From Pseudooceanicola lipolyticus (GTDB taxonomy: Bacteria; Pseudomonadota; Alphaproteobacteria; Rhodobacterales; Rhodobacteraceae), in the NCBI RefSeq assembly GCF_002786325.1, contig NZ_PGTB01000020.1:1-45306 (forward strand): a DNA stretch of 45,306 nt, written 5' to 3'. The position numbers and the translations under genes are program-made. Position 1 is the stretch's first letter, and every line of letters starts with the position of its first letter. Below, piece after piece: positions 9,815 through 31,835 of this stretch. Under the pieces are notes generated by a model. That model saw only the letters and a list, made by a program, of their open reading frames with translations. It was not told where the DNA came from and searched no databases.

Positions 9815-11425
9815 TCAGCTTGCCACCGGGTCCATCACCGTGGGCCAGGCCGCCTTGTTGGACTTGATCGCATCCAGCAGCTTGTCCTCGCCGACGCGGC
9901 GGGCAATGCGCTGCCATTGGCGTTCGGTATTGGCCATCGCCTGTTCCGCCGACATGCCGCCGGTCAGCGCCGCCATCAGGTTTTCGTCCAGCGCGTTGTG
10001 GAAGGCGGTGGCGCCGGGATAGTTGATCGTCGGCACCGTGCGCTTCACGCTCTCGCGGACCACGTCCATGTGGTAGTCATGATAGGTTTCGCGCACCAGC
10101 GGATCAGCGAAGTTCGACAGCTGGAACGGGTCGAAATAGCCGCCCGGATTGGCCGTCATCCAGGAATAGATGCGCGACGATCCCAGCCATTGCAGCAGCA
10201 GATAGGCCGCCTCGGGATGTTCCGACTGCGACGACACGCAGGCGGTCAGGTTCAACCACAGCACGGTGCGCGACGCGATGCCATCGTCATGTTGGCGCCC
10301 CGGCGGCAGGTGGCTGCCCACCTTGCCGGTGACCTTGGAGCCTTCGTTCGCCGGGTTGTCGAGGAATTTGGGCAGGTTCGAAAAGGCACAGGTCATCGCC
10401 GCGCCGCCATTGCCGAAATTGCCGTATTGCTCGGGCCAGCCCCAGCTGATCGCGTCGGGCGAATGGTGCGACAGGCTGTCGATATATTCCTGCGTCGCGG
10501 CCCAGCCGGCCTCGGTATTGATCAGCGCGGTGCCGTCATCGGCGAACAGGAACTGGTTCGGCGATCCCATCGACACATAGCGCTGGTACCAGTTGGTATA
10601 GCCCCAGCCCTGGTTGCGCAGATCGGTCGAGCCGAACAGCCCCTGGTCCGGCCGGTGGAAGAACGCCGCGATCTCGTCATGCTGCCTCCAGGTTTTCGGC
10701 GGCGCCAGGTCGTAGCCGTATTGGTCGGCAAAGGCCTGCTGTTCGGTCGGGTCGTTGAACAGGTCGCTGCGGTGGTTCCAGGTCTGGAAATCGCCGTCCA
10801 GCGACACGCCATAAACCGCGCCGCGATAGGCGTTCAGCAGCGACACGCCCTGATCGCCATTGACATAGCCGCGCTCCGGGTCGTCCCATTGCGGCTGGTG
10901 CTGAGCCACGAAATCATCCAGCGCCACGATGCCGCCGGTTTCCGCCAGATCGCCCAGACGGTTCCATTCCACCGCGTAGATGTCAAAGCCGCCCGCCTTG
11001 GTCGAGACGTCCTGCATGACCTTGGTGAATTCCTGCCCGTTCGGCACCCCGACAATATCCAGCACGATGCCGGTTTCCTGCTCCCACAGTTCCTTGACCG
11101 AGGGCGCGCCCTCCGGGAACGGCTGGGTGATCTGCCCGATGGACCCGTCCGACAGGCCCAGCACGATCCGCGCCGGCGCCTTGCCGGCCGCCTTCAGCGC
11201 CTTGGCCGCCTCGATCGCCCGCCCCTCGGGGGTGTCGGGCCCGTATTGATAGCGCTCGGCCCCGGCAAAGCCGGTCGGGCCACCGATCATGCCATCGGCC
11301 AGCCCCCCGGCGGCGCGAGCGCGGTCAGCGCGCAGGACCAGCGGCGAGGACAGCGCGACAAGCGCGGTTGTCTGGGCGGCAGCCGTCAGCAGGCGGCGCC
11401 GCGAAAATCGCGGTTGATTGTTCAT
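9815..11425 (-). CDS. Tat-exported ABC transporter substrate-binding protein
   Basis: This is a 536-residue periplasmic binding protein of the large sugar/polyol class (GlpV-like in size). The N-terminus MNNQPRFSRRRLLTAAAQ is a twin-arginine signal followed by a hydrophobic core and an A-R-A cleavage region near residue 38-40, so export is probably by Tat. The body shows family 1 features: a WEQETGIVLDIVGVP segment, FDIYAVEWNRLGDLAETGGIV and an EYIDSLSHHSPDAISW hinge region. The start at 11425 is chosen because GGGAGGG lies just upstream and it places the Tat motif at the N-terminus; an upstream in-frame start would bury it. It is the first gene of the operon, divergent from the LacI-type regulator. 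Confidence 0.92.
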   Translation of the reverse strand: MNNQPRFSRRRLLTAAAQTTALVALSSPLVLRADRARAAGGLADGMIGGPTGFAGAERYQYGPDTPEGRAIEAAKALKAAGKAPARIVLGLSDGSIGQITQPFPEGAPSVKELWEQETGIVLDIVGVPNGQEFTKVMQDVSTKAGGFDIYAVEWNRLGDLAETGGIVALDDFVAQHQPQWDDPERGYVNGDQGVSLLNAYRGAVYGVSLDGDFQTWNHRSDLFNDPTEQQAFADQYGYDLAPPKTWRQHDEIAAFFHRPDQGLFGSTDLRNQGWGYTNWYQRYVSMGSPNQFLFADDGTALINTEAGWAATQEYIDSLSHHSPDAISWGWPEQYGNFGNGGAAMTCAFSNLPKFLDNPANEGSKVTGKVGSHLPPGRQHDDGIASRTVLWLNLTACVSSQSEHPEAAYLLLQWLGSSRIYSWMTANPGGYFDPFQLSNFADPLVRETYHDYHMDVVRESVKRTVPTINYPGATAFHNALDENLMAALTGGMSAEQAMANTERQWQRIARRVGEDKLLDAIKSNKAAWPTVMDPVAS

Positions 11426-11504
11426 ATTTCCCTCCCTGGTCGCGCCCCCCGGACGCACCTTTCCAATGAGGTCCACCATCCTCCGCCGCCCGCGCAACGA
11501 CAAT

Positions 11505-11534
11505 CATCAATAGCCATCAATTCCCATCATTATC
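11505..11534. repeat. Three phased 10-bp direct repeats in the operon control region
   Basis: CATCAATAGC, CATCAATTCC and CATCATTATC follow each other without spacing, each starting CATCA. The 10-bp period puts them on the same face of the helix. They lie 80-110 nt upstream of the binding-protein start and overlap the left arm of the inverted repeat at 11529-11575. They may be part of the regulator's binding region. Confidence 0.5.
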
Positions 11535-11575
11535 GCCCATTTGCGGTGAGATGAGCCGCTGAATGAGGCGATAAT
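11529..11575. promoter_or_regulatory. Candidate operator: inverted repeat ATTATCGCC ... GGCGATAAT
   Basis: Two perfect 9-bp arms (11529-11537 and 11567-11575) face each other across 29 nt in the 232-nt divergent region between the ABC operon and the LacI-family gene. Similarity extends loosely beyond each arm (CATT / TCATT). Each arm contains GATAAT reading outward, a good match to a -10 hexamer, so the arms may coincide with divergent promoters. Binding by the adjacent regulator is inferred from position only. Confidence 0.5.
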
Positions 11576-11657
11576 CGCAGTTTCCAGAGATAAATGATTG
11601 CATCACATCACCAAAATGAGGTGAAATGATGATCACTTCGACTCGCGAAAGGCTCAT

Positions 11658-12665
11658 ATGCGCACCACAGTCTCTCAAATCGCCCGCGAGGCCGGCGTCT
11701 CTCCAGCCACGGTCGACCGGGTGCTGAATGACCGCGACGGCGTGCGCCCGCGCACCCGCGAGATCGTGCTGCAGGTGGCGCGCAAGCTGGGTTATTTCGG
11801 CCCGCAGGAGGCCGGCGACAATGCCATCAAGGTGCGGCTGGACTTCATCCTGCCCGCAGGCAGCAATTCCTTCATCCGCACCCTGCGCAAGAACCTGCTG
11901 GAAGAAAGCCTGGCGCGCGACGACGTCGCCGCCACCATCCACGAGATCGAAGGGTTCGATCCCGACCGGCTCTCCGCCAAGCTGGGTGATTTGCGCGGCC
12001 GCACCGATGCGGTCGGCCTGGTGGCGCTGGATCATCCGCAGGTGCGCGAGGCGATCAACGACCTGGCGAAATCCGGCGTGCGGATCGGCACGCTGGTGTC
12101 AGACATCCCCACTGTCGACAAGGTCGGCTATGTCGGGGTCGACAACCGCGCCGCCGGGCGGCTGGCCGGCCTGCTGCTGGGCCGGTTCCTGCCGCCGGGA
12201 CAGCACAAGGTCGCCGTGTTCATCGGCTCGCTTGCCTATCGCGGCCACGAGGAACGCGAGATGGGGTTCCGCTCGATCCTCAGCGAGGAGTTTCCCGAGA
12301 TGCGCATCGCCGGCACCGCCGAGGTCAGCGACGACCGCGACCGCGCCTATCAGGAAACCATGCGCTTTCTCGACCGCGGCGACATCACCGGCATCTACAA
12401 TATCGGGTCGGGCAATCAGGGCATCGCCCGCGCCCTGCGCGAGGCGCGCATGGAACGGCAAATGGTGTTCATCGGCCATGACCTGACCGACGCCACCCGG
12501 CTGATGCTGCTGGATCGCACCATGGATGCGGTGATCGACCAAAACCCGCGGGTCGAGGCACGCGAAATCGTTCGCCTGCTGGCCTCCTCGGTCAAGGGAT
12601 CGATGGAACCGGAATACCTGCCCCGTCTGCAGGTGGTGTTCAAAGAGAATATTCCGATCCAGTAG
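11658..12665 (+). CDS. LacI-family transcriptional regulator
   Basis: This 335-residue regulator has an N-terminal LacI helix-turn-helix (TVSQIAREAGVSPATVDRVL, residues 4-23) and hinge (DGVRPRTREIVLQVARKLGYF). A periplasmic-binding-protein-like ligand domain follows (DKVGYVGVDNRAAGRLAGLLL, IYNIGSGNQGIARALREA). The TVDRVLN recognition helix and long effector domain are as in regulators of sugar and inositol-like uptake operons. It is divergent from the ABC operon and probably controls it; the effector is likely the transported compound or a product. The gene meets the histidine kinase gene tail to tail with a 9-nt gap. Confidence 0.93.
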   Translation: MRTTVSQIAREAGVSPATVDRVLNDRDGVRPRTREIVLQVARKLGYFGPQEAGDNAIKVRLDFILPAGSNSFIRTLRKNLLEESLARDDVAATIHEIEGFDPDRLSAKLGDLRGRTDAVGLVALDHPQVREAINDLAKSGVRIGTLVSDIPTVDKVGYVGVDNRAAGRLAGLLLGRFLPPGQHKVAVFIGSLAYRGHEEREMGFRSILSEEFPEMRIAGTAEVSDDRDRAYQETMRFLDRGDITGIYNIGSGNQGIARALREARMERQMVFIGHDLTDATRLMLLDRTMDAVIDQNPRVEAREIVRLLASSVKGSMEPEYLPRLQVVFKENIPIQ

Positions 12666-20758: not shown

Positions 20759-21835
20759 ATGGCCGATTTTGACGCGATGGTTCGTGAATCACAGGAAAAG
20801 GTCGCCAAAAGCCAGGCCGAGATCAAGGCGATGACCAGCCGGATCGAGGCCGCCCGCGCCAAGATCGAGGCGGGCGAGGACGCGGCCATCGATATCGAGA
20901 ATGCAACGCTGGATGACGTGCACGCCCATACCGAGGTGATGACCGCCAATATCGCCGAGCTGATCATGGGGCTGGACGATGTGACCGCCGGATTCTCCAA
21001 GGATTTCGACGAGATGCGCAACAAGACCGGCTGGGAAAGCTTTGTCGGCATCTTCTCCAAGGCCAAGTCCGACTCGATGCGGCAGGAACGCATGCGCACC
21101 GCCAATATCGACGACAAGCTGCAGGACCTGATCTCGAAATCCGATGTCATCGTCAAGCTGCTGCAGGAGCAACTGGCGATGCTGGAAACCCAGAAAACCC
21201 AGGTCGGCGACAACCTGTCGTCCACCCTGGACGAACGCGAGATGACGGTGGGCGAGTTGGAGGCCCTGCGCGCCGATATCCTGGCGATGGATCCCAAGAT
21301 CATCGAGCTGGAGAACAAGATCAGCGTCGAACAGGACGCCGCCGCGCGCACCAAGCTGGAAACCGACCTGGCCGCGCTGAACGCGAAGTACAACGAGATG
21401 GTGCAGCAGGAACAGGTCAAGCTGGCCAAGTCGCAGACGCTGGAACGCTATATCGAAAAGGGCAAGAGCTGGGTCGATTCACTGCAGAACCAGGCGGCGA
21501 CGCAGATGGTGCTGATCAACAAGCTGCAGACCGACACGCAGCAGCGCGTGGTGCTGTATGATGCGCTGTCGAAATCGCTGAAAACCGCCCAGCAGCAGGA
21601 CGTGGCGCACCGGATCAACGAGATCGGCGTCAAGACCGACCAGGAGGCGCAGACCGCCATGGCCGCCATCGGCACCGCCACCAACCAGAAGATGGCCGAC
21701 ATGCTGGAAGCCCACGAGGATCACATGGTCTTCGCCCGCAAGGTGCTGGAACAGAAGGCCAAGGCCGACGAACGCTTTGCCCGCCGGTTCCAGGCGATTG
21801 TCGATAAGCACGACAAGAACCTGTACGGGGCTTGA
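20759..21835 (+). CDS. Coiled-coil protein of unknown function, first gene of the six-gene set
   Basis: This 358-residue protein is almost entirely helical and charged. Long heptad-like stretches run through residues about 5-45 (MVRESQEKVAKSQAEIKAMT), 115-240 (LLQEQLAMLETQKTQ, LEALRADILAMDPKIIELEN) and 290-345. A conserved-looking non-coiled patch is GWESFVGIFSKAKSDSMRQER. There is no signal peptide, TM segment or enzyme motif. The ATG at 20759 is preceded by AGAGGGAG; the TTG one codon earlier is not needed. The layout loosely recalls TelA-type helical proteins, but I cannot support that. It may be an assembly or adaptor partner for the ATPase encoded two genes downstream. Confidence 0.85.
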   Translation: MADFDAMVRESQEKVAKSQAEIKAMTSRIEAARAKIEAGEDAAIDIENATLDDVHAHTEVMTANIAELIMGLDDVTAGFSKDFDEMRNKTGWESFVGIFSKAKSDSMRQERMRTANIDDKLQDLISKSDVIVKLLQEQLAMLETQKTQVGDNLSSTLDEREMTVGELEALRADILAMDPKIIELENKISVEQDAAARTKLETDLAALNAKYNEMVQQEQVKLAKSQTLERYIEKGKSWVDSLQNQAATQMVLINKLQTDTQQRVVLYDALSKSLKTAQQQDVAHRINEIGVKTDQEAQTAMAAIGTATNQKMADMLEAHEDHMVFARKVLEQKAKADERFARRFQAIVDKHDKNLYGA

Positions 21836-21891
21836 GTGCAGATGCATCCCGGTTCCACAGCCGCGTTCAGTCAGCGGCTGGGAGAAGATGA

Positions 21892-23016
21892 ATGACCACC
21901 ACCGCCGAAGATGACCGCGCCGGCCTGAGCGACACCTTCGCCTCGCGGCGTTATTTCCGCAAGTTCGAGGCGATCACCGGCCATCTCGGCCGCGTCGCCG
22001 GCGTGCTGGAGGCCGAGGGCGCGCTGGACAAGACCGAGGTCAGGGTGCTGACCCGCTATGTGCAGATGCTGACCTTCACCTTTCGCGCGCTCAGCATGAA
22101 ATACCTCATGGTTGGCCGCGACACAGGGCGGTTTTTCGGCTCGCTGCTGATCGACACCCGCGACAGCGGCTTTCCGGTGGCGACCGAGCTGATGACCATG
22201 GCCAATGACGCCCAGCAAGCCGAAAGCCACCTGGCCAACATGCCCTCGGAGGCGCGGCTGAAGGATGACATGGTGCGCACCATCGTCAGCGACCGGCAAA
22301 TCCCTACCAAGCTGCAATTCGCGCTGTCGCAGCGGCTGTATTACCAGGAACTGCTGAAAGGCGGGCTGTTCTGGTGTCGCAACGATCCCGATTGCCAGTG
22401 GCTGGGCAATCTCGGCGAAAACCGGCGCCGTTTCCTGCTGCATTGGGCGGCCTATGACAGCCAGACCAACCTGCCGGTGATCTACCTGATGGAAGTCGAG
22501 GATTCCGGCCGCACCGCCCTGCCCAAGGACGAACGCCGCTGGCCCGAGGCGCAGGCGCATCTGACCGCGCAGGCGCTGGGCGGGCTCAAGCTGTTGACCA
22601 TCGCCAAGGGTTTTGACGAGGATTTCGACGACCTGCACCCGAAACGCCTGCGCCGCTTCCATATCGGGCCGATGTATTCCCATGCCTATACGCGCCAGGC
22701 CGGGCCGCTGCGCCAGGTACTGGAAGACGCCGCCGCGCCCGAAGGCCAAGACTGGGCGCTGGCCTGGACCCAGGAAGATCTGCACAGCGAACGGGTGGTC
22801 GAGGAACGCGCTGGCTGGTTCGGCAAGGTTGAACGCGAGGTGTTTGCCCTCGATCCGTTTGCCGGGCGCGGCGCCGAAACCGGCGCCTCGCTGACGGAAC
22901 GCGCGATCATCCTGCCGCAGCGGCCGTTCCAGGTGCTGGCCGAGCAGAACCCGCCGGGCTTTGCCAGCGTGCGGAAATTTGTCGTCGGTGATGGCGGCCG
23001 CGTGCTCAGGTACTGA
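21892..23016 (+). CDS. Soluble protein of unknown family, second gene of the six-gene set
   Basis: This 374-residue protein has no signal peptide or TM segment. The N-terminal half is helical (FASRRYFRKFEAITGHLGRV, VLTRYVQMLTFTFRALSMKY). The middle carries a mixed alpha/beta part with CRNDPDCQWL and YDSQTNLPVIYLMEVEDSG. The C-terminal third is rich in Arg/Phe and ends in VRKFVVGDGGRVLRY. No catalytic motif was recognised. It begins 56 nt after the coiled-coil gene, with GGGAGAAG as ribosome binding site, and ends 61 nt before the ATPase gene. Confidence 0.85.
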   Translation: MTTTAEDDRAGLSDTFASRRYFRKFEAITGHLGRVAGVLEAEGALDKTEVRVLTRYVQMLTFTFRALSMKYLMVGRDTGRFFGSLLIDTRDSGFPVATELMTMANDAQQAESHLANMPSEARLKDDMVRTIVSDRQIPTKLQFALSQRLYYQELLKGGLFWCRNDPDCQWLGNLGENRRRFLLHWAAYDSQTNLPVIYLMEVEDSGRTALPKDERRWPEAQAHLTAQALGGLKLLTIAKGFDEDFDDLHPKRLRRFHIGPMYSHAYTRQAGPLRQVLEDAAAPEGQDWALAWTQEDLHSERVVEERAGWFGKVEREVFALDPFAGRGAETGASLTERAIILPQRPFQVLAEQNPPGFASVRKFVVGDGGRVLRY

Positions 23017-23077
23017 GCCCGCGGCCGGTGTCGCCGGGTGGAAGACGCAGGAAAGATAAAGGGAGGACCCGCGCCAG

Positions 23078-25015
23078 ATGAGCCTGACATCCGACCAGAT
23101 GGAACTCCGCGAGGCGGATATCCGCGCCCATTACCCGGCCGCCGCGGCGATGCTGGACGGGTTCGACCATACCCCGCGCATCGCCAAACCGGGCGAACCT
23201 GCCGCGGCCCCCGAACGCTCTCCGGGCATCGGCAGCCGCCGCCGTTTTCGCTCCACCACCCCCGGCCTGGTCACGCGCTCGACCGCGCGGCCCGAGGGCG
23301 TGCACCTGCTGGAACGGATCGCCGCCGCCGATGACGGCGACATCATCACCTCGCCAAGCCAGGCGGTGGTGATGACCGCGCTGCGCCGGGCGCTGGCGAT
23401 CGCGCTGGCCCTCGGCGACAGCTTCGCCGACGCCACGCCGCTGGCCGAGCTGAAACGCGCCAATCTCGCCGGCAGCCTGCCGGCCGCGCGCAAGACCGAG
23501 TTTTCGGAACTGCTGGCCTCCGAGGCGCTGATCGCGCTGCATGTTTTTGGCAACGCGCTGGCCTATCTGCTGTCGCCCCATGCCGGCGAGGTTGCGGTCG
23601 AGGTCGGCGAGGCGCAGGAGGTGCTGACCGACAATGGCCAGCTGGCGCTGCACGGCGCGCTGTGGGAACTGGACCAGATGTTCGCCCGCCACGCCGCCGA
23701 CGATGCCCGGCTGCTGGCCACCGCCAGCGCCTATGCCGAACAGCTGATGGAAAAATCTGCCCTGCGCGCCCAGTCGGCGCCGCATCTGGGCCCGTTCACC
23801 GGCGCCGCCTGGCGGGTCGAGGCCGATGACCTGACGATCCGCGGCTTCACCCCGGCCTCCAAGGCCAGGTCCACCACGCTGACCATGACCTTCAAGCAGC
23901 CCAACGAAGTGGTCGGCAACCATATCGCCAAATACCAGGCGATGAAGCTGGCCAAGATGCTGATGGCCTATGATTTCGACCGCAAGCTGAACCCCTTTGC
24001 CGAGCTTGGCGGCTTCATCTTCACCTTCATGGGCGATGGCAAGCCGGGCACCGGCAAGACCACCCTGATCCAGATGATGGCGGGGCTGATCGACGGCTAT
24101 TGCCGCAATGCCGGCTATCCCTTCCGCTATCAGAACCTCAGCACCGAGAATATCGACAGCTATCAGGGCAAGTCGGGCCAGAACGCCAAGGCCTTCATCA
24201 ACACGATCATCGACCCTTCGGTGATCGGCTTCGGCACCATTGACGATATCGACCAATTGGCCGGCAAGCGCGGCGACCGCCAGTCCAGCGCCGGCCAGCT
24301 GGAAATCACCGCGGTGCTGATGGAAAGCTTTGCCGGCGCCAATACCGTGGTGCGCGGCAACTGCACCTTCGGCATGTTCTCGAACTATCCCGAAAACGTC
24401 GACGACGCCCTGCGCCAGCGCGCCGGCGCGCGGTTCCTGGTCGACGGGCCGCAGACCCGCGAGGATTACATCGACATCCTGCATCTGCTGATGGGTAAGA
24501 ACCACGCCATTCCGCTGGGCGATCACGACGCCTATGCCGCGCAGGAGATCAAGCGCGCCGTCGCCGCATCGTTCGAAGCACACGCGCGCCCGCATGAGGA
24601 AGGGTTGCTGAACGTCTTCGACCGGGTACAGGCGCAGATTGGCGAGTTGGACACCATCGCCAAGATGGGCACCTATCTGAAGGCGATCCAGCAGGCGGAC
24701 GACCGCTTTACCGGCCGGGCGATCAAGAACATCACCGACGCCGTGAAGGTCCGGGCGATGGATTTCGAACTGCCCGATGAATGGATGGAAGAGCCGGACC
24801 TGTTCCTGTTCAAACCTTACGACGAGAAAAAGGCGATGATCGCAGAGTTGCGGGTGCCGATCACCGCCGAGATGGTGATCCAGGAGATCAACCGCTATGC
24901 CGATAGCGAATTCCGCTATGCCGACAAATCCGACGAGGCCGCGATCGAGGCATTGGTGCGCGAGTTCGGCCGGCAGGAAGCGGCGAAGAAGCGGTATCTG
25001 GAGGGCAAGGAGTGA
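23078..25015 (+). CDS. AAA+ ATPase with long unassigned N-terminal half
   Basis: The protein has 645 residues. The ATPase core sits in the middle: Walker A GKPGTGKT (321-328), Walker B GFGTIDDID (D389/D390), sensor 1 Asn436 in FSNYPENVDDALRQR, and arginine-finger candidates R446/R448/R452. This ordering is classic AAA+. Residues 1-310 contain a helical region (ALRRALAIALALGDSFADA, AEQLMEKSALRAQ) with no family I know. Residues 520-645 are helical, probably lid plus a C-terminal extension (KAIQQADDRFTGRAI). No protease or helicase domain is fused. It likely remodels or assembles a complex with the neighbouring gene products, which is inference. GGGAGGA precedes the ATG. Confidence 0.92.
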   Translation: MSLTSDQMELREADIRAHYPAAAAMLDGFDHTPRIAKPGEPAAAPERSPGIGSRRRFRSTTPGLVTRSTARPEGVHLLERIAAADDGDIITSPSQAVVMTALRRALAIALALGDSFADATPLAELKRANLAGSLPAARKTEFSELLASEALIALHVFGNALAYLLSPHAGEVAVEVGEAQEVLTDNGQLALHGALWELDQMFARHAADDARLLATASAYAEQLMEKSALRAQSAPHLGPFTGAAWRVEADDLTIRGFTPASKARSTTLTMTFKQPNEVVGNHIAKYQAMKLAKMLMAYDFDRKLNPFAELGGFIFTFMGDGKPGTGKTTLIQMMAGLIDGYCRNAGYPFRYQNLSTENIDSYQGKSGQNAKAFINTIIDPSVIGFGTIDDIDQLAGKRGDRQSSAGQLEITAVLMESFAGANTVVRGNCTFGMFSNYPENVDDALRQRAGARFLVDGPQTREDYIDILHLLMGKNHAIPLGDHDAYAAQEIKRAVAASFEAHARPHEEGLLNVFDRVQAQIGELDTIAKMGTYLKAIQQADDRFTGRAIKNITDAVKVRAMDFELPDEWMEEPDLFLFKPYDEKKAMIAELRVPITAEMVIQEINRYADSEFRYADKSDEAAIEALVREFGRQEAAKKRYLEGKE

Positions 25016-25051
25016 GACCCCTGCAACCGATCCACGACACATCGATGCCCC

Positions 25052-25080
25052 GCTGTCCCGGCCCCCGCGCCGGGACCTCT
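25052..25080. repeat. Dispersed hairpin element, copy 1
   Basis: GTCCCGGC (25055-25062) pairs with GCCGGGAC (25069-25076) across a CCCCGC loop, in the 121-nt gap between the ATPase and the DUF6638 gene. A near-identical copy occurs at 29951-29978 with compensatory changes in the stem, which marks it as a repeated structured element of the REP kind. Confidence 0.65.
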
Positions 25081-25136
25081 ACCCGTAGCCAAGAGGCCCC
25101 GGATCACCTTCGCGGCGGCGGCAGGGAGGCACGGCC

Positions 25137-26483
25137 ATGAAACGCCTCATCGAAAAGGGCCTGATGTTCGGCAACCTCTACCACGTCTCCTCGCACGCGC
25201 TGGTCGAGCGGTATAACCGCGCGCTGGAACATCTGACCGGCAGGCGCACGCAGCTTGCCGATTTCCACATCGACCTCTCCGGCTATTCGCCCGAGATCGG
25301 CGACGAATTCGGCGATGACCTCTATCTCAACCACAACGGCGTCAACCGGCAGTTCATCCTGCTGACCACCGAGCAGAAACGCTGCCCGCTGCTGAACGTG
25401 AAATTCTCCACCTCACGCGAGATCCTGAAACGGTTCATCACCGATAACGAAACCCAGCTCTTCGCGCTCACCGCCACCGATGCGGTGGCGGGCGAGCTGA
25501 TCAATTCGGTTTTCGACATCTCGCACCCCGCCCGCCTGTTCGACATCACCAGCATCGGGATCGAGGCCGACACCACCACCGGCACCCTGCGCCATGCCGA
25601 ACGGCTGGCCGGGCTGGTCGATCGGTTCAAGACCGAGGAGGATGGCTGGTTCGACGATGTGCTGATCGCCGAGATGATCGGGCTGGCGCAGAAATCCGGC
25701 GACATCACCCGCAACCCGGTACGGCTGAAACAGAAAAGTTACGACCAGCCCGATTTCTGGACCGCCCATTTCGGCGGTGCCTACCTGTTCCGCTCGGTGC
25801 CGCATCCGGCGCTGATCGCCGTCGGTGACAAGCAGGGCTTCGACGGTGTGCCGCTGAAACATGTCTTCGACCTGGAGGACCGCAACCAGATCGCCAGGTT
25901 CCTCGATCTGAACGACCTGGTCGAACCCATCGTCAAGGCGCGCGGCATCGACGCGGTGGCGATCCTGCGCCAGAAGATGGATTTCATCGTCATCGATGCC
26001 GCCGCCGACCTCGACCTTGACCTCACCGGCCTCACCCGTCCCGACATCCGCCGCCTGGCGCGGGCCAATGCCGACCGCCTGCCGCGCGCCTATCACGGGC
26101 TGAACGCGCTGCTGAAATGGGCGGTGGAGGGCGGCAGGTGGCCGCGCATCGATTCCTCGGACCCGGCCTATTTCTATTCGCTGCGCGCCGCCGACACGCC
26201 GCAGCGCGACCTGGTCAACATGCTGCTGGCCAATCTCACGCCGCTGGACATCCGGCAGCTGTTCATCTGCCACAAACAGCTGTTCTACGACCTTTACCGC
26301 ACCTGGCCCGAGACCAAGCGCGCCTTTGTCGCCGATTTCCTCGACCGGGAATATCAGGTGGACAAGGCCGGGGCACGCGCGGCACTGTTCGGGCACGAGC
26401 CGGATATGGGCGGCCGCCCGCCGCCCCGCCCGGTGGAAGAAATCGTTCGCAGGGTCGGGCCCTGGGGCGCAGTCAGGAGATAG
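25137..26483 (+). CDS. Probable DUF6638 family protein, fourth gene of the six-gene set
   Basis: This 448-residue soluble protein has no signal peptide or TM segment. Recognisable stretches are KGLMFGNLYHVSSHALVERY at the N-terminus, FGDDLYLNHNGVNRQFILL, SISHPARLFDI-like text near residue 130 and LFICHKQLFYDLYRTWPETK near the C-terminus. It resembles the DUF6638 family of Rhodobacterales, named from memory of the pattern. No catalytic motif is evident. A GGGAGG site precedes the ATG. The next gene starts 3 nt after its stop, and that gene's CAGGAGA site lies inside this gene's 3' end, so the two are surely co-transcribed. Confidence 0.85.
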   Translation: MKRLIEKGLMFGNLYHVSSHALVERYNRALEHLTGRRTQLADFHIDLSGYSPEIGDEFGDDLYLNHNGVNRQFILLTTEQKRCPLLNVKFSTSREILKRFITDNETQLFALTATDAVAGELINSVFDISHPARLFDITSIGIEADTTTGTLRHAERLAGLVDRFKTEEDGWFDDVLIAEMIGLAQKSGDITRNPVRLKQKSYDQPDFWTAHFGGAYLFRSVPHPALIAVGDKQGFDGVPLKHVFDLEDRNQIARFLDLNDLVEPIVKARGIDAVAILRQKMDFIVIDAAADLDLDLTGLTRPDIRRLARANADRLPRAYHGLNALLKWAVEGGRWPRIDSSDPAYFYSLRAADTPQRDLVNMLLANLTPLDIRQLFICHKQLFYDLYRTWPETKRAFVADFLDREYQVDKAGARAALFGHEPDMGGRPPPRPVEEIVRRVGPWGAVRR

Positions 26484-26486
26484 GCG

Positions 26487-26762
26487 ATGGGCTTTGTCCG
26501 TCTTACCATAGTCGGCCTGATCGTCATGACGGCGGCCTATTTCCTGATCTCGCTCTATTCGCGCTCGGTCCGGCGCGAAAAGCTGGAAAAACGCTGGGCG
26601 GCGGAACATCCCGGCGCCACCGACATGGCGGCGCGCGCGGCCTATGTTGAAAAAGGGATGGCCGAGTATCACGCCAGCCTGCGGCCCAAGCTGATCCTGC
26701 TGGTCTATGTCATCCCGGTGATCGTCGTCGCCGCGATCCACATCGTCACCACCTATTACTGA
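26487..26762 (+). CDS. Small two-TM membrane protein, fifth gene of the six-gene set
   Basis: This 91-residue protein has TM1 at about residues 5-24 (LTIVGLIVMTAAYFLISLY). A charged 45-residue cytoplasmic or periplasmic loop follows (SVRREKLEKRWAAEHPGA ... YVEKGMAEYHASLRPK), then TM2 at about 70-88 (LILLVYVIPVIVVAAIHIV). There is no known domain. Spacing is 3 nt from the gene before and 9 nt from the gene after. It probably anchors or partners the soluble proteins or the DUF1523 protein. Confidence 0.85.
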   Translation: MGFVRLTIVGLIVMTAAYFLISLYSRSVRREKLEKRWAAEHPGATDMAARAAYVEKGMAEYHASLRPKLILLVYVIPVIVVAAIHIVTTYY

Positions 26763-26771
26763 GGAGCGCCC

Positions 26772-27452
26772 ATGCGCCGCATCAAGACCGCCTTTTTCAT
26801 CCTTGTCTTCGTGATCGTCGGCGGCTTCCTGCATTATGTCCTGCCCCAGCATGACATCGTGCGCATCACCTCGACCGAGGTGATCCGTACCGATTTCAAC
26901 TGGCTGAACCGCCCGTTTTACGCCCAGGCCGACAGCGGCGCCTCGGAACTGGCCACCCGCGACCTGCGGCTGATCAATACCGAGAAACGGCGCACCTGGT
27001 TGCTGGGCTTCTTCCCGCGCGGCTCCACCCGCGTCATGGTGTATCGCAACGAGGATACCGGCTGGATCTGGCCGCCCTATTTCAAGTTCGACAGTTCCGA
27101 CCTGCAGGCCCAGGCCGCCGCCAATGTCTCGACCAATGCCAATCCGCAATGGGCGGTGCTGACCCATTACGGCTGGCGCAACAAATACCTGTCGATCTAT
27201 CCCAACGCCATCGGCATCCGCCCGGTCGAAGGCCCGGACGTAACCGTGATCCCCTGGTTCAACATCGTCTTCTTCTTCTTCCTCGCCATCGCCTGGGGCT
27301 TTCTCAGGGCGGTCTGGCGCCAATTCCGCGAACGCACCATCGACCCGACGATGGACGATATCGAGGAACAGTGGGACACGGTGGGCCATCACCTGTCCGA
27401 ACGCCGCGGCCGATTCCGCCGCTGGCTCGACACCTGGCGGGCAAAAAAATAG
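26772..27452 (+). CDS. DUF1523 family membrane protein, sixth gene of the six-gene set
   Basis: This 226-residue protein has an N-terminal TM (AFFILVFVIVGGFLHYVLP). A periplasmic domain of about 130 residues follows (DIVRITSTEVIRTDFNWLN, RDLRLINTEKRRTWLLGFFP, TGWIWPPYFKFDSSDLQAQA, HYGWRNKYLSIYPNAIGIRP). A second TM (WFNIVFFFFLAIAWGFLRAV) and a basic cytoplasmic tail complete it. This is the DUF1523 arrangement known from Rhodobacterales. GAGGAG precedes the start. It is the last gene before an intrinsic terminator. Confidence 0.88.
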   Translation: MRRIKTAFFILVFVIVGGFLHYVLPQHDIVRITSTEVIRTDFNWLNRPFYAQADSGASELATRDLRLINTEKRRTWLLGFFPRGSTRVMVYRNEDTGWIWPPYFKFDSSDLQAQAAANVSTNANPQWAVLTHYGWRNKYLSIYPNAIGIRPVEGPDVTVIPWFNIVFFFFLAIAWGFLRAVWRQFRERTIDPTMDDIEEQWDTVGHHLSERRGRFRRWLDTWRAKK

Positions 27453-27573
27453 ACGGGCAAAAAAATTGCCAACCGGTTGAAACCATTTCGGTCTCGGCGC
27501 GTTAACGAATTGGAAGCAGCGACCTGAGGTTGCTTCCGCCCATCCTGCCACCGGGTTTGCCCGGTCCCCCCCA

Positions 27574-27615
27574 GGCCCGCCTCTCATCCCCAACGAGGCG
27601 GGCCGCCCCTTTTTC
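27574..27615 (+). terminator. Rho-independent terminator of the six-gene set
   Basis: A perfect 10-bp GC-rich stem (GGCCCGCCTC 27574-27583, GAGGCGGGCC 27595-27604) with an 11-nt loop is followed by GCCCCTTTTT. It stands 121 nt after the DUF1523 stop and before the convergent pseudouridine synthase gene. Confidence 0.75.
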
Positions 27616-27620
27616 GGGGG

Positions 27621-28274
27621 TCAGAACTCCGCCGCCGCCCGGAACCGCAGCGCCGCGCCGCCATCGGGATGGCGGATCTTCAGCTCTTCGGAATGCAGCA
27701 TCAGCCGCGGATGGTCCCGCGCCGCGCCCTCGGCATAGAGCGGATCGCCCAGGATCGGATGACCCAGCGCCAGCATATGCACCCTCAGCTGGTGGCTGCG
27801 CCCGGTTTTCGGGTTCAACCGCACCCGCGTGGTGTCGCCCTCGTGGCGCAGCACCCGCCAGTCGGTCACCGCCGCCCGGCCGTTCTGGTGATCGACCATC
27901 TGCCGCGGCCGCCGCTCCCAGTCGACAATCAGCGGGAGGTCCACCGTACCGGTTTTCGGCGCCAGCCGGCCGGCCAGCCGGGCCAGATAGGTCTTGCGCG
28001 CCTGCCGCTTCTCGAATTGCAGCCCCAGATGCCGCTGCGCATGCGGCGTCAGCGCAAATACCATCACCCCCGAAGTGTCGCGGTCCAGCCGGTGCACCAA
28101 CAGCACCTGCGGAAACACCGCCTGCAACCGGGCGATCAGGCAATCGGCCAGATGCGCGCCCTTGCCCGGCACCGACAGCAGCCCGGCGGGCTTGTTCACC
28201 ACCAGGATTTCCGCATCGTCATGCAGGATCTCGGGCATCCCGGGGGGTGGTGCATATACGCTCGAAACCGTCAT
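27621..28274 (-). CDS. RluA-family RNA pseudouridine synthase
   Basis: This 217-residue protein has the RluA catalytic motif HRLDRDTSG, whose aspartate is the nucleophile. The preceding VVNKPAGLLSVPGKG and later TGRSHQLRVHMLALGHPILG and DPLYAE motifs also match. There is no S4 domain, and the short length fits the RluA subgroup that modifies 23S rRNA and some tRNAs. The target position cannot be assigned. It is convergent with the six-gene set and divergent from the NTF2-like gene. Confidence 0.92.
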   Translation of the reverse strand: MTVSSVYAPPPGMPEILHDDAEILVVNKPAGLLSVPGKGAHLADCLIARLQAVFPQVLLVHRLDRDTSGVMVFALTPHAQRHLGLQFEKRQARKTYLARLAGRLAPKTGTVDLPLIVDWERRPRQMVDHQNGRAAVTDWRVLRHEGDTTRVRLNPKTGRSHQLRVHMLALGHPILGDPLYAEGAARDHPRLMLHSEELKIRHPDGGAALRFRAAAEF

Positions 28275-31360: not shown

Positions 31361-31835
31361 CCCGCATCCGCCGCTGCGGCCGGCGGCGCACAGCGGCACG
31401 GGCCGGATCAGCGCCAATACCGGCGGCGCGCGCAGCGCCATCCGCGCCACGATGCAGCGGCTGGCCGGGGCCGGGCTGGCGCCGGAAACCCGCGAAAACG
31501 TGCAGATCGTGCTGGCCGAGGTGATCAACAACATCGTCGAACATGCCTTTGCCGGCAACACCGCCGCGACATTCGTGATCGAATTCCACCTGTCCCCCGA
31601 CCAGTTGCAGCTGACGCTGACCGATCGCGGCCGCAGCTTTCCCGCTGGCCGGCTGCCGCCGCCTCGCGTGCCCGATCTGTCCGGCCCGCGCGCCACAATG
31701 CCCGAAGGCGGCTTTGGCTGGCCGCTGATCCGCATGTTGACCAGCCGGCTGGCCTATCGTCGCGAAAACGGACAGAACCGGCTGGATCTGTGGTTCGACC
31801 TGGCCACGCCGGCCGCCCCCGACCCGGCAAACTGA
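31332..31835 (+). CDS. RsbW-like anti-sigma factor / serine kinase (HATPase_c_2)
   Basis: This 167-residue GHKL-fold protein has N-box EVINNIVEHAFAG, G1 TDRGRSF and a G2-like PEGGFGWPLIRML. These match the anti-sigma kinase family that phosphorylates STAS antagonists. It overlaps the STAS gene by 29 nt. No sigma factor or PP2C phosphatase gene is adjacent, so the target is elsewhere. A strong terminator follows 115 nt downstream. Confidence 0.88.
   Translation: MTHSRLNGADPHPPLRPAAHSGTGRISANTGGARSAIRATMQRLAGAGLAPETRENVQIVLAEVINNIVEHAFAGNTAATFVIEFHLSPDQLQLTLTDRGRSFPAGRLPPPRVPDLSGPRATMPEGGFGWPLIRMLTSRLAYRRENGQNRLDLWFDLATPAAPDPAN

Follow-up and report, generated by a model that had tools for sequence, protein, structure and literature searches.

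A four-gene AAA+ ATPase block inherited as a unit, with an attached membrane-protein pair, in Rhodobacterales

Do six same-strand genes around a AAA+ ATPase in Pseudooceanicola lipolyticus form one system, and what might such a system do? The stretch of DNA analysed here (the window) covers 45,306 nt of contig NZ_PGTB01000020.1; the genes described below lie on its + strand. Gene A (20759–21835, from the list of open reading frames) encodes a soluble coiled-coil protein of 358 residues, predicted to be all-helical; gene B (21892–23016), a soluble protein of 374 residues with a predicted helical N-terminal and alpha/beta C-terminal part; and gene C (23078–25015), a classical AAA+ ATPase of 645 residues, whose AAA domain spans residues ∼300–470. 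Beyond a C–D gap that is empty here (25016–25136) lie gene D (25137–26483), coding for a 448-residue DUF6638 protein (PF20343, 871 bits), gene E (26487–26762), coding for a small protein of 91 residues with transmembrane (TM) segments at 3–21 and 69–87, and gene F (26772–27452), coding for a 226-residue DUF1523 membrane protein (PF07509, 204 bits; TM 6–24 and ∼157–181). The ORF coordinates bear out a sequence-only reading of this region, which had described six genes on one strand with gaps of 56, 61, 121, 3 and 9 nt. Its assignments of D to DUF6638 and F to DUF1523 agree with the Pfam profiles, of which both proteins are full-length members, and hydropathy recovers the two TM segments proposed for E (counts: two in E, two in F, none in A–D). 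The same reading had closed the set with a terminator. A terminator-like hairpin and T run (27574–27614, + strand) are indeed present, yet 121 nt past F and adjoining a convergent pseudouridine-synthase gene (27621–28274). The hairpin (27574–27604) has a 10-bp stem and a loop of 11, is followed by GCCCCTTTTT, and gives a folding energy of −32.5 kcal/mol (z −2.8) for positions 27560–27625; a consensus terminator scan missed it because that scan accepts loops of 8 at most.

Inheritance within the order Rhodobacterales divides the six genes into two groups. Among 149 genomes, A, B, C and D are each present in 89, and the four lists, compared by eye, name identical genomes. E and F occur in 136 and 143 genomes of the same sample; 46 of the 60 genomes lacking A–D have both, and in all 46 the two genes are adjacent, 10–88 nt apart. 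A–B–C–D is an all-or-none block, and E–F is a separate, near-universal membrane pair. Because E and F occur independently of A–D, the presumed six-gene set is better described as a four-gene core with an attached membrane pair. One of the 89 genomes (G180) has broken pieces only, of all four A–D genes, and in G066 and G139 a stop codon falls within the D match. Where computed, dN/dS of A–D is 0.11–0.31 against the loci L082, L083 and L127.

Gene order is kept as well. A search of 61 genomes detected C in 20, the window's own among them (all from the 37 of its family, none from the 24 others), and the order A–B–C–D–E–F holds in 17 of the 20 loci fetched around these genomes; of the remaining three, two are cut by contig ends and one is a fragment from the window's own assembly. 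On contig C65 of the window's genome, 75 bases (L043:8147–8221) identical to window positions 24563–24637 of gene C follow an unrelated frame where the contig ends, which looks like an assembly break. For named relatives, taken as the best 80 of 415 confirmed in a GTDB contig scan, all six genes are in order at 70 loci. The exceptions among these best 80 include contig ends (L097, L109, L123, L124, L137 and L152), a locus in which E went undetected (L153), two with A–B–C and none of D, E or F in view (L104 and L113), and a metagenome bin with C only (L098). The conserved order that had been proposed as a check was thus found, and of the claim that the six genes are one set, the co-inheritance of A–D and the six-gene order stand, whereas the occurrence of E and F without A–D speaks against their full membership. 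Spacing behind D is tight (median D–E gap 1.5 nt in 86 loci; median E–F gap 10 nt in 87 loci). In genus g67, genomes with A–D (G066, G088 and G176) have second copies of E and F beside D, whereas those without A–D (G068, G128 and G138) have one E and one F each, which suggests that the whole set arrived together in the carriers.

The identification of C as a AAA+ ATPase is supported by its match to PF00004 (46.3 bits against a cut-off of 21.2; E 7e-12) and by alignments with classical AAA proteins in the PDB, including i-AAA protease, VCP-like proteins, proteasome ATPases, katanin and VPS4. Hallmarks of classical AAA proteins are a second region of homology (SRH) with arginine fingers, an aromatic-x-Gly pore loop and a Walker B motif of the form hhhhDE. 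Like i-AAA/FtsH, VCP, the proteasome ATPases and VPS4/katanin, C has Walker A, the pore loop and paired SRH arginines. Across ten diverse sequences, Walker A (G319–T328; GxxxxGKT, in the form G321-x-P-G-T-G-K-T328), the pore loop Y362-Q363-G364, which aligns to the YVG of i-AAA, and R446 and R448 of the SRH (SNYPENVDDALRQR in the window) are all invariant. Unlike classical AAA proteins, C carries D389-D390 in Walker B in 10/10 sequences, aspartate replacing the glutamate of hhhhDE, and ATP hydrolysis by C therefore cannot be assumed. C differs further in its partners and in an N-terminal extension of ∼300 residues, for which no family match was found. The best-supported interpretation is that C is a translocase-type AAA motor, with A, B and D as its probable obligate partners.

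The other members are less readily classified. A and C are the most conserved (mean column identity of A, 83% over 19 sequences). A is predicted to be helical and B to be folded. The A model places helices at 52–96, 117–190, 194–275 and 282–352, with a predicted hairpin of helices 74 and 82 residues long, at a mean pLDDT of 66, which is low confidence; structural matches to this model are at the level of arrangement and mostly to common helical arrangements. The coiled-coil protein that had been remarked on beside the ATPase belongs to a real, co-inherited gene set and is predicted to be all-helical. For B, the fold is predicted with confidence and has no clear structural match. No curated family scored above cut-off for A, B or E, and searches of PHROGs and PADLOC returned weak or generic AAA matches only; those from PADLOC comprised TRIP13 (21 bits) for C, and NsnC (16.6 bits) and a type II REase (15 bits) for A. 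A known anti-phage system was rejected on the ground that all PADLOC signature matches are weak.

Hosts of the best 80 named loci are mostly roseobacters and their kin (Ruegeria, Shimia, Roseovarius, Leisingera, Sulfitobacter, Tateyamaria and others), plus two Halomonas. Laboratory roseobacters with the operon include Ruegeria conchae TW15 (L089) and Leisingera aquaemixtae CECT 8399 (L127). A quick tree of 88 C proteins, with a long-branch warning elsewhere, places the Halomonas locus L158 and its near twin G506 inside the roseobacters (8-row group, support 98); the Halomonas copies were thus probably acquired by transfer. In the family of G506, A matched in 2 of 101 sampled genomes: G506 itself, and a second through a 23-bit match taken as chance. 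A sample of the class has A in 5 of 289 genomes, four of them from the window's family; one of the phylum has it in 23 of 299 at E 0.01, ten from the window's family, the match in G704 (18.6 bits) being probably due to chance. Diverged A–B–C–D blocks occur in rhizobia, in another alphaproteobacterial family and on Vibrio megaplasmids, with that order present in G389 (as A–B–C–D–F, E undetected), at least three rhizobial loci and two Vibrio records. In the Vibrio records (∼0.9 Mb) the block is followed by mfd; E and F were found at neither, nor at the rhizobial A–B–C–D loci L182, L183, L200 and L201. The Vibrio records (L198 and L199, ‘plasmids’ of V. vulnificus and V. parahaemolyticus) have their own mfd and secA near the block. 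A DUF2333 gene, whose product is a probable membrane protein as judged by eye, follows D in Sinorhizobium meliloti, and another adjoins an orphan A-like gene on a Rhizobium leguminosarum plasmid. Some rhizobia retain only such an orphan. Diverged orphans at L184:9713–10786, L185:9922–10995 and L202:7794–8867 occupy places where relatives have A–B–C–D; the one in L202 is beside DUF2333 and close to the choline transporter and formate–tetrahydrofolate ligase genes.

How might these proteins act together? The reading we favour, at a probability of about 0.35, is a single AAA+ remodelling machine with A, B, C and D as its obligate subunits, in which C pulls on A or on an A-bound client, assisted by B and D, near the membrane. 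C would form a ring motor of the classical AAA kind, its Tyr-Gln-Gly loops threading polypeptide through the pore. A, as an elongated helical hairpin, would be expected to self-assemble and is the likeliest candidate for client or scaffold, while B and D may act as adaptors, linking A to C or bringing in clients. In Rhodobacterales, the E–F pair could position the machine at the inner membrane, where ATP hydrolysis would build or dismantle an A-containing structure on the envelope. The one-machine reading draws on the identical presence pattern of A–D, their kept order, the AAA sequence features of C, the remains of all four genes in G180, the short D–E and E–F gaps, the dN/dS values and the DUF2333 gene beside the block. 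It is weakened by the pLDDT of the A model, the occurrence of E and F without A–D, the D-D Walker B, the long C–D gaps of relatives and the two loci with A–B–C and no D in view. The membrane link of A–D is suggested by their co-location with E–F only. Such a machine, made of four proteins and apparently driven by ATP, is present in 89 of the 149 genomes sampled, and for three of its subunits we found no family of known function. It is a clean target, since the all-or-none pattern leads one to expect the same knock-out phenotype for each of A–D. The analysis also separates the likely machine from a membrane pair with which annotation alone would lump it, and places DUF6638 and DUF1523 in a genomic context.

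A–D could instead be a cytosolic AAA machine, such as a client-specific chaperone or activase in the style of MoxR or CbbX and their partners, with E–F merely co-located and without an envelope role. We hold this to be a possible explanation, slightly less likely than the favoured reading. The near-universal distribution of E–F as a pair of its own, the failure to find E and F at the Vibrio and rhizobial blocks and the lack of TM segments in A–D all fit a soluble machine; however, E–F follows D almost without a gap in the measured A–D loci, seems to travel along in g67, where the second E and F lie beside D only in genomes with A–D, and in S. meliloti the probable membrane protein DUF2333 is encoded beside the block. 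Far less credible is an assembly of chance neighbours that share a direction of transcription and no function. Gaps of 56–121 nt among A, B, C and D, and the variation of the A–B and C–D gaps in relatives, leave some room for it, but the common presence pattern in 149 genomes and the order kept in four distant lineages contradict it for A–D.

The C–D gap raises a different alternative. Its median is 689 nt in 85 loci, exceeding 250 nt in 74 and measuring 250 nt or less in 11; the next longest, the A–B gap, has a median of 219 nt (80 loci). GC is more than 0.05 below that of C in 54 of the 74 long slots, and ORFs of at least 100 aa occur on the + strand in 33 of them against 16.0 expected from Markov shuffles, an excess that is partly chance because 20 of the 74 show such ORFs on the minus strand. 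The gap is a variable slot, often with extra genes in relatives and empty in the window, and its length in most relatives means that A–B–C and D–E–F may be two transcripts. From 45 slot ORFs in 39 loci, at most six match a Pfam or PADLOC model at an accepted score and most match nothing. The largest family, a small 3-TM protein termed X, is present at 12 loci; X also precedes F in 6 of 22 loci lacking A–D, with E called between in five. Other matches are a PIN_10/DUF433 pair, two DUF2971, two PDC-S31 and one CARF-HEPN-like protein. These matches, the length, lowered GC and ORF excess of the slot, and the patchy presence of the block with its transfer to Halomonas would be in keeping with a conflict or stress-defence machine with exchangeable effectors in its slot, including many small membrane proteins. 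We consider this improbable, as PADLOC gives no convincing family match for A–D, A and C are highly conserved, the slot is short in some loci and empty in the window, few slot ORFs match any model, X before E–F in the absence of A–D is not solely an A–D effector, and searches turned up neither A nor Vibrio C among phage records and no C among viral contigs.

A more specific form of the envelope machine can be drawn from known systems. ESCRT-III or PspA with a VPS4-type ATPase combines a helical hairpin protein with a classical AAA ATPase, and the present locus resembles this in having the gene of a helical hairpin protein, A, beside the classical AAA gene C, with membrane proteins nearby. A–B–C–D might then be a filament remodeller of this type whose parts are unrelated or have diverged beyond recognition, with A polymerising on the inner membrane, C dismantling the polymer, B and D regulating, and E–F (DUF2333 in rhizobia) anchoring it to the envelope; we judge this version unlikely. 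A and two diverged A proteins gave no PspA or Snf7 profile match at E up to 1, A had no PDB sequence match, and a Pfam sequence-profile search for an MIT domain in C had no match at E up to 1. TelA (PF05816), a long-helix protein of similar size found in the same genomes, is a separate gene in 9/9 genomes searched, and A was rejected as TelA (HHalign probability 0.2–0.4% against 0.2–0.3% for a reversed control; no Pfam match). C was likewise rejected as a CbbX/MoxR activase (CbbX 12.4 bits against a cut-off of 459.25; no MoxR model listed). The sequence-only reading had given no member an assigned function. Literature searches on the combined gene set yielded no paper on such a system, and PADLOC no convincing match; a search for DUF6638 found no paper mentioning it. 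The portion of the PSP survey PMC11237479 that we drew on describes AAA partners of PspA and leaves the A–B–C–D set unmentioned. One table in PMC11373665 lists a mycobacteriophage protein that matches DUF1523 at E 0.77, and one in PMC9339283 labels a 112-aa mycobacteriophage growth inhibitor DUF1523.

In the window, recR ends 190 nt upstream of A, and the proximity of ybaB–recR had been taken as a sign of core genome. Searches at E 0.001 detected neither gene in the 20 fetched loci or the best 80 of 415 named loci, in flanks of roughly 3–8 kb (shorter at contig ends), so that this neighbourhood is particular to the window among the loci examined. With patchy presence, the G180 remains and the Halomonas copy nested among roseobacters, ‘core genome’ proves too strong a term. 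Flanking genes of the block vary between genera. In two genomes lacking A–D, F lies close to the aldehyde dehydrogenase gene that also borders many A–D loci, and by eye this holds for others among 22 loci lacking A–D; the same site thus seems to be there whether or not it has the block. The sole tRNA detected in the window is a tRNA-Thr (GGT) at 31361–31457 on the minus strand. The C–D gap of a Marivita operon contains DUF433 and PIN-like genes (L119:9947–11094), a toxin–antitoxin-like pair, and that of an S. meliloti locus contains an endonuclease-domain gene (L200:9986–10390) and an IS4-type transposase (10568–11731).
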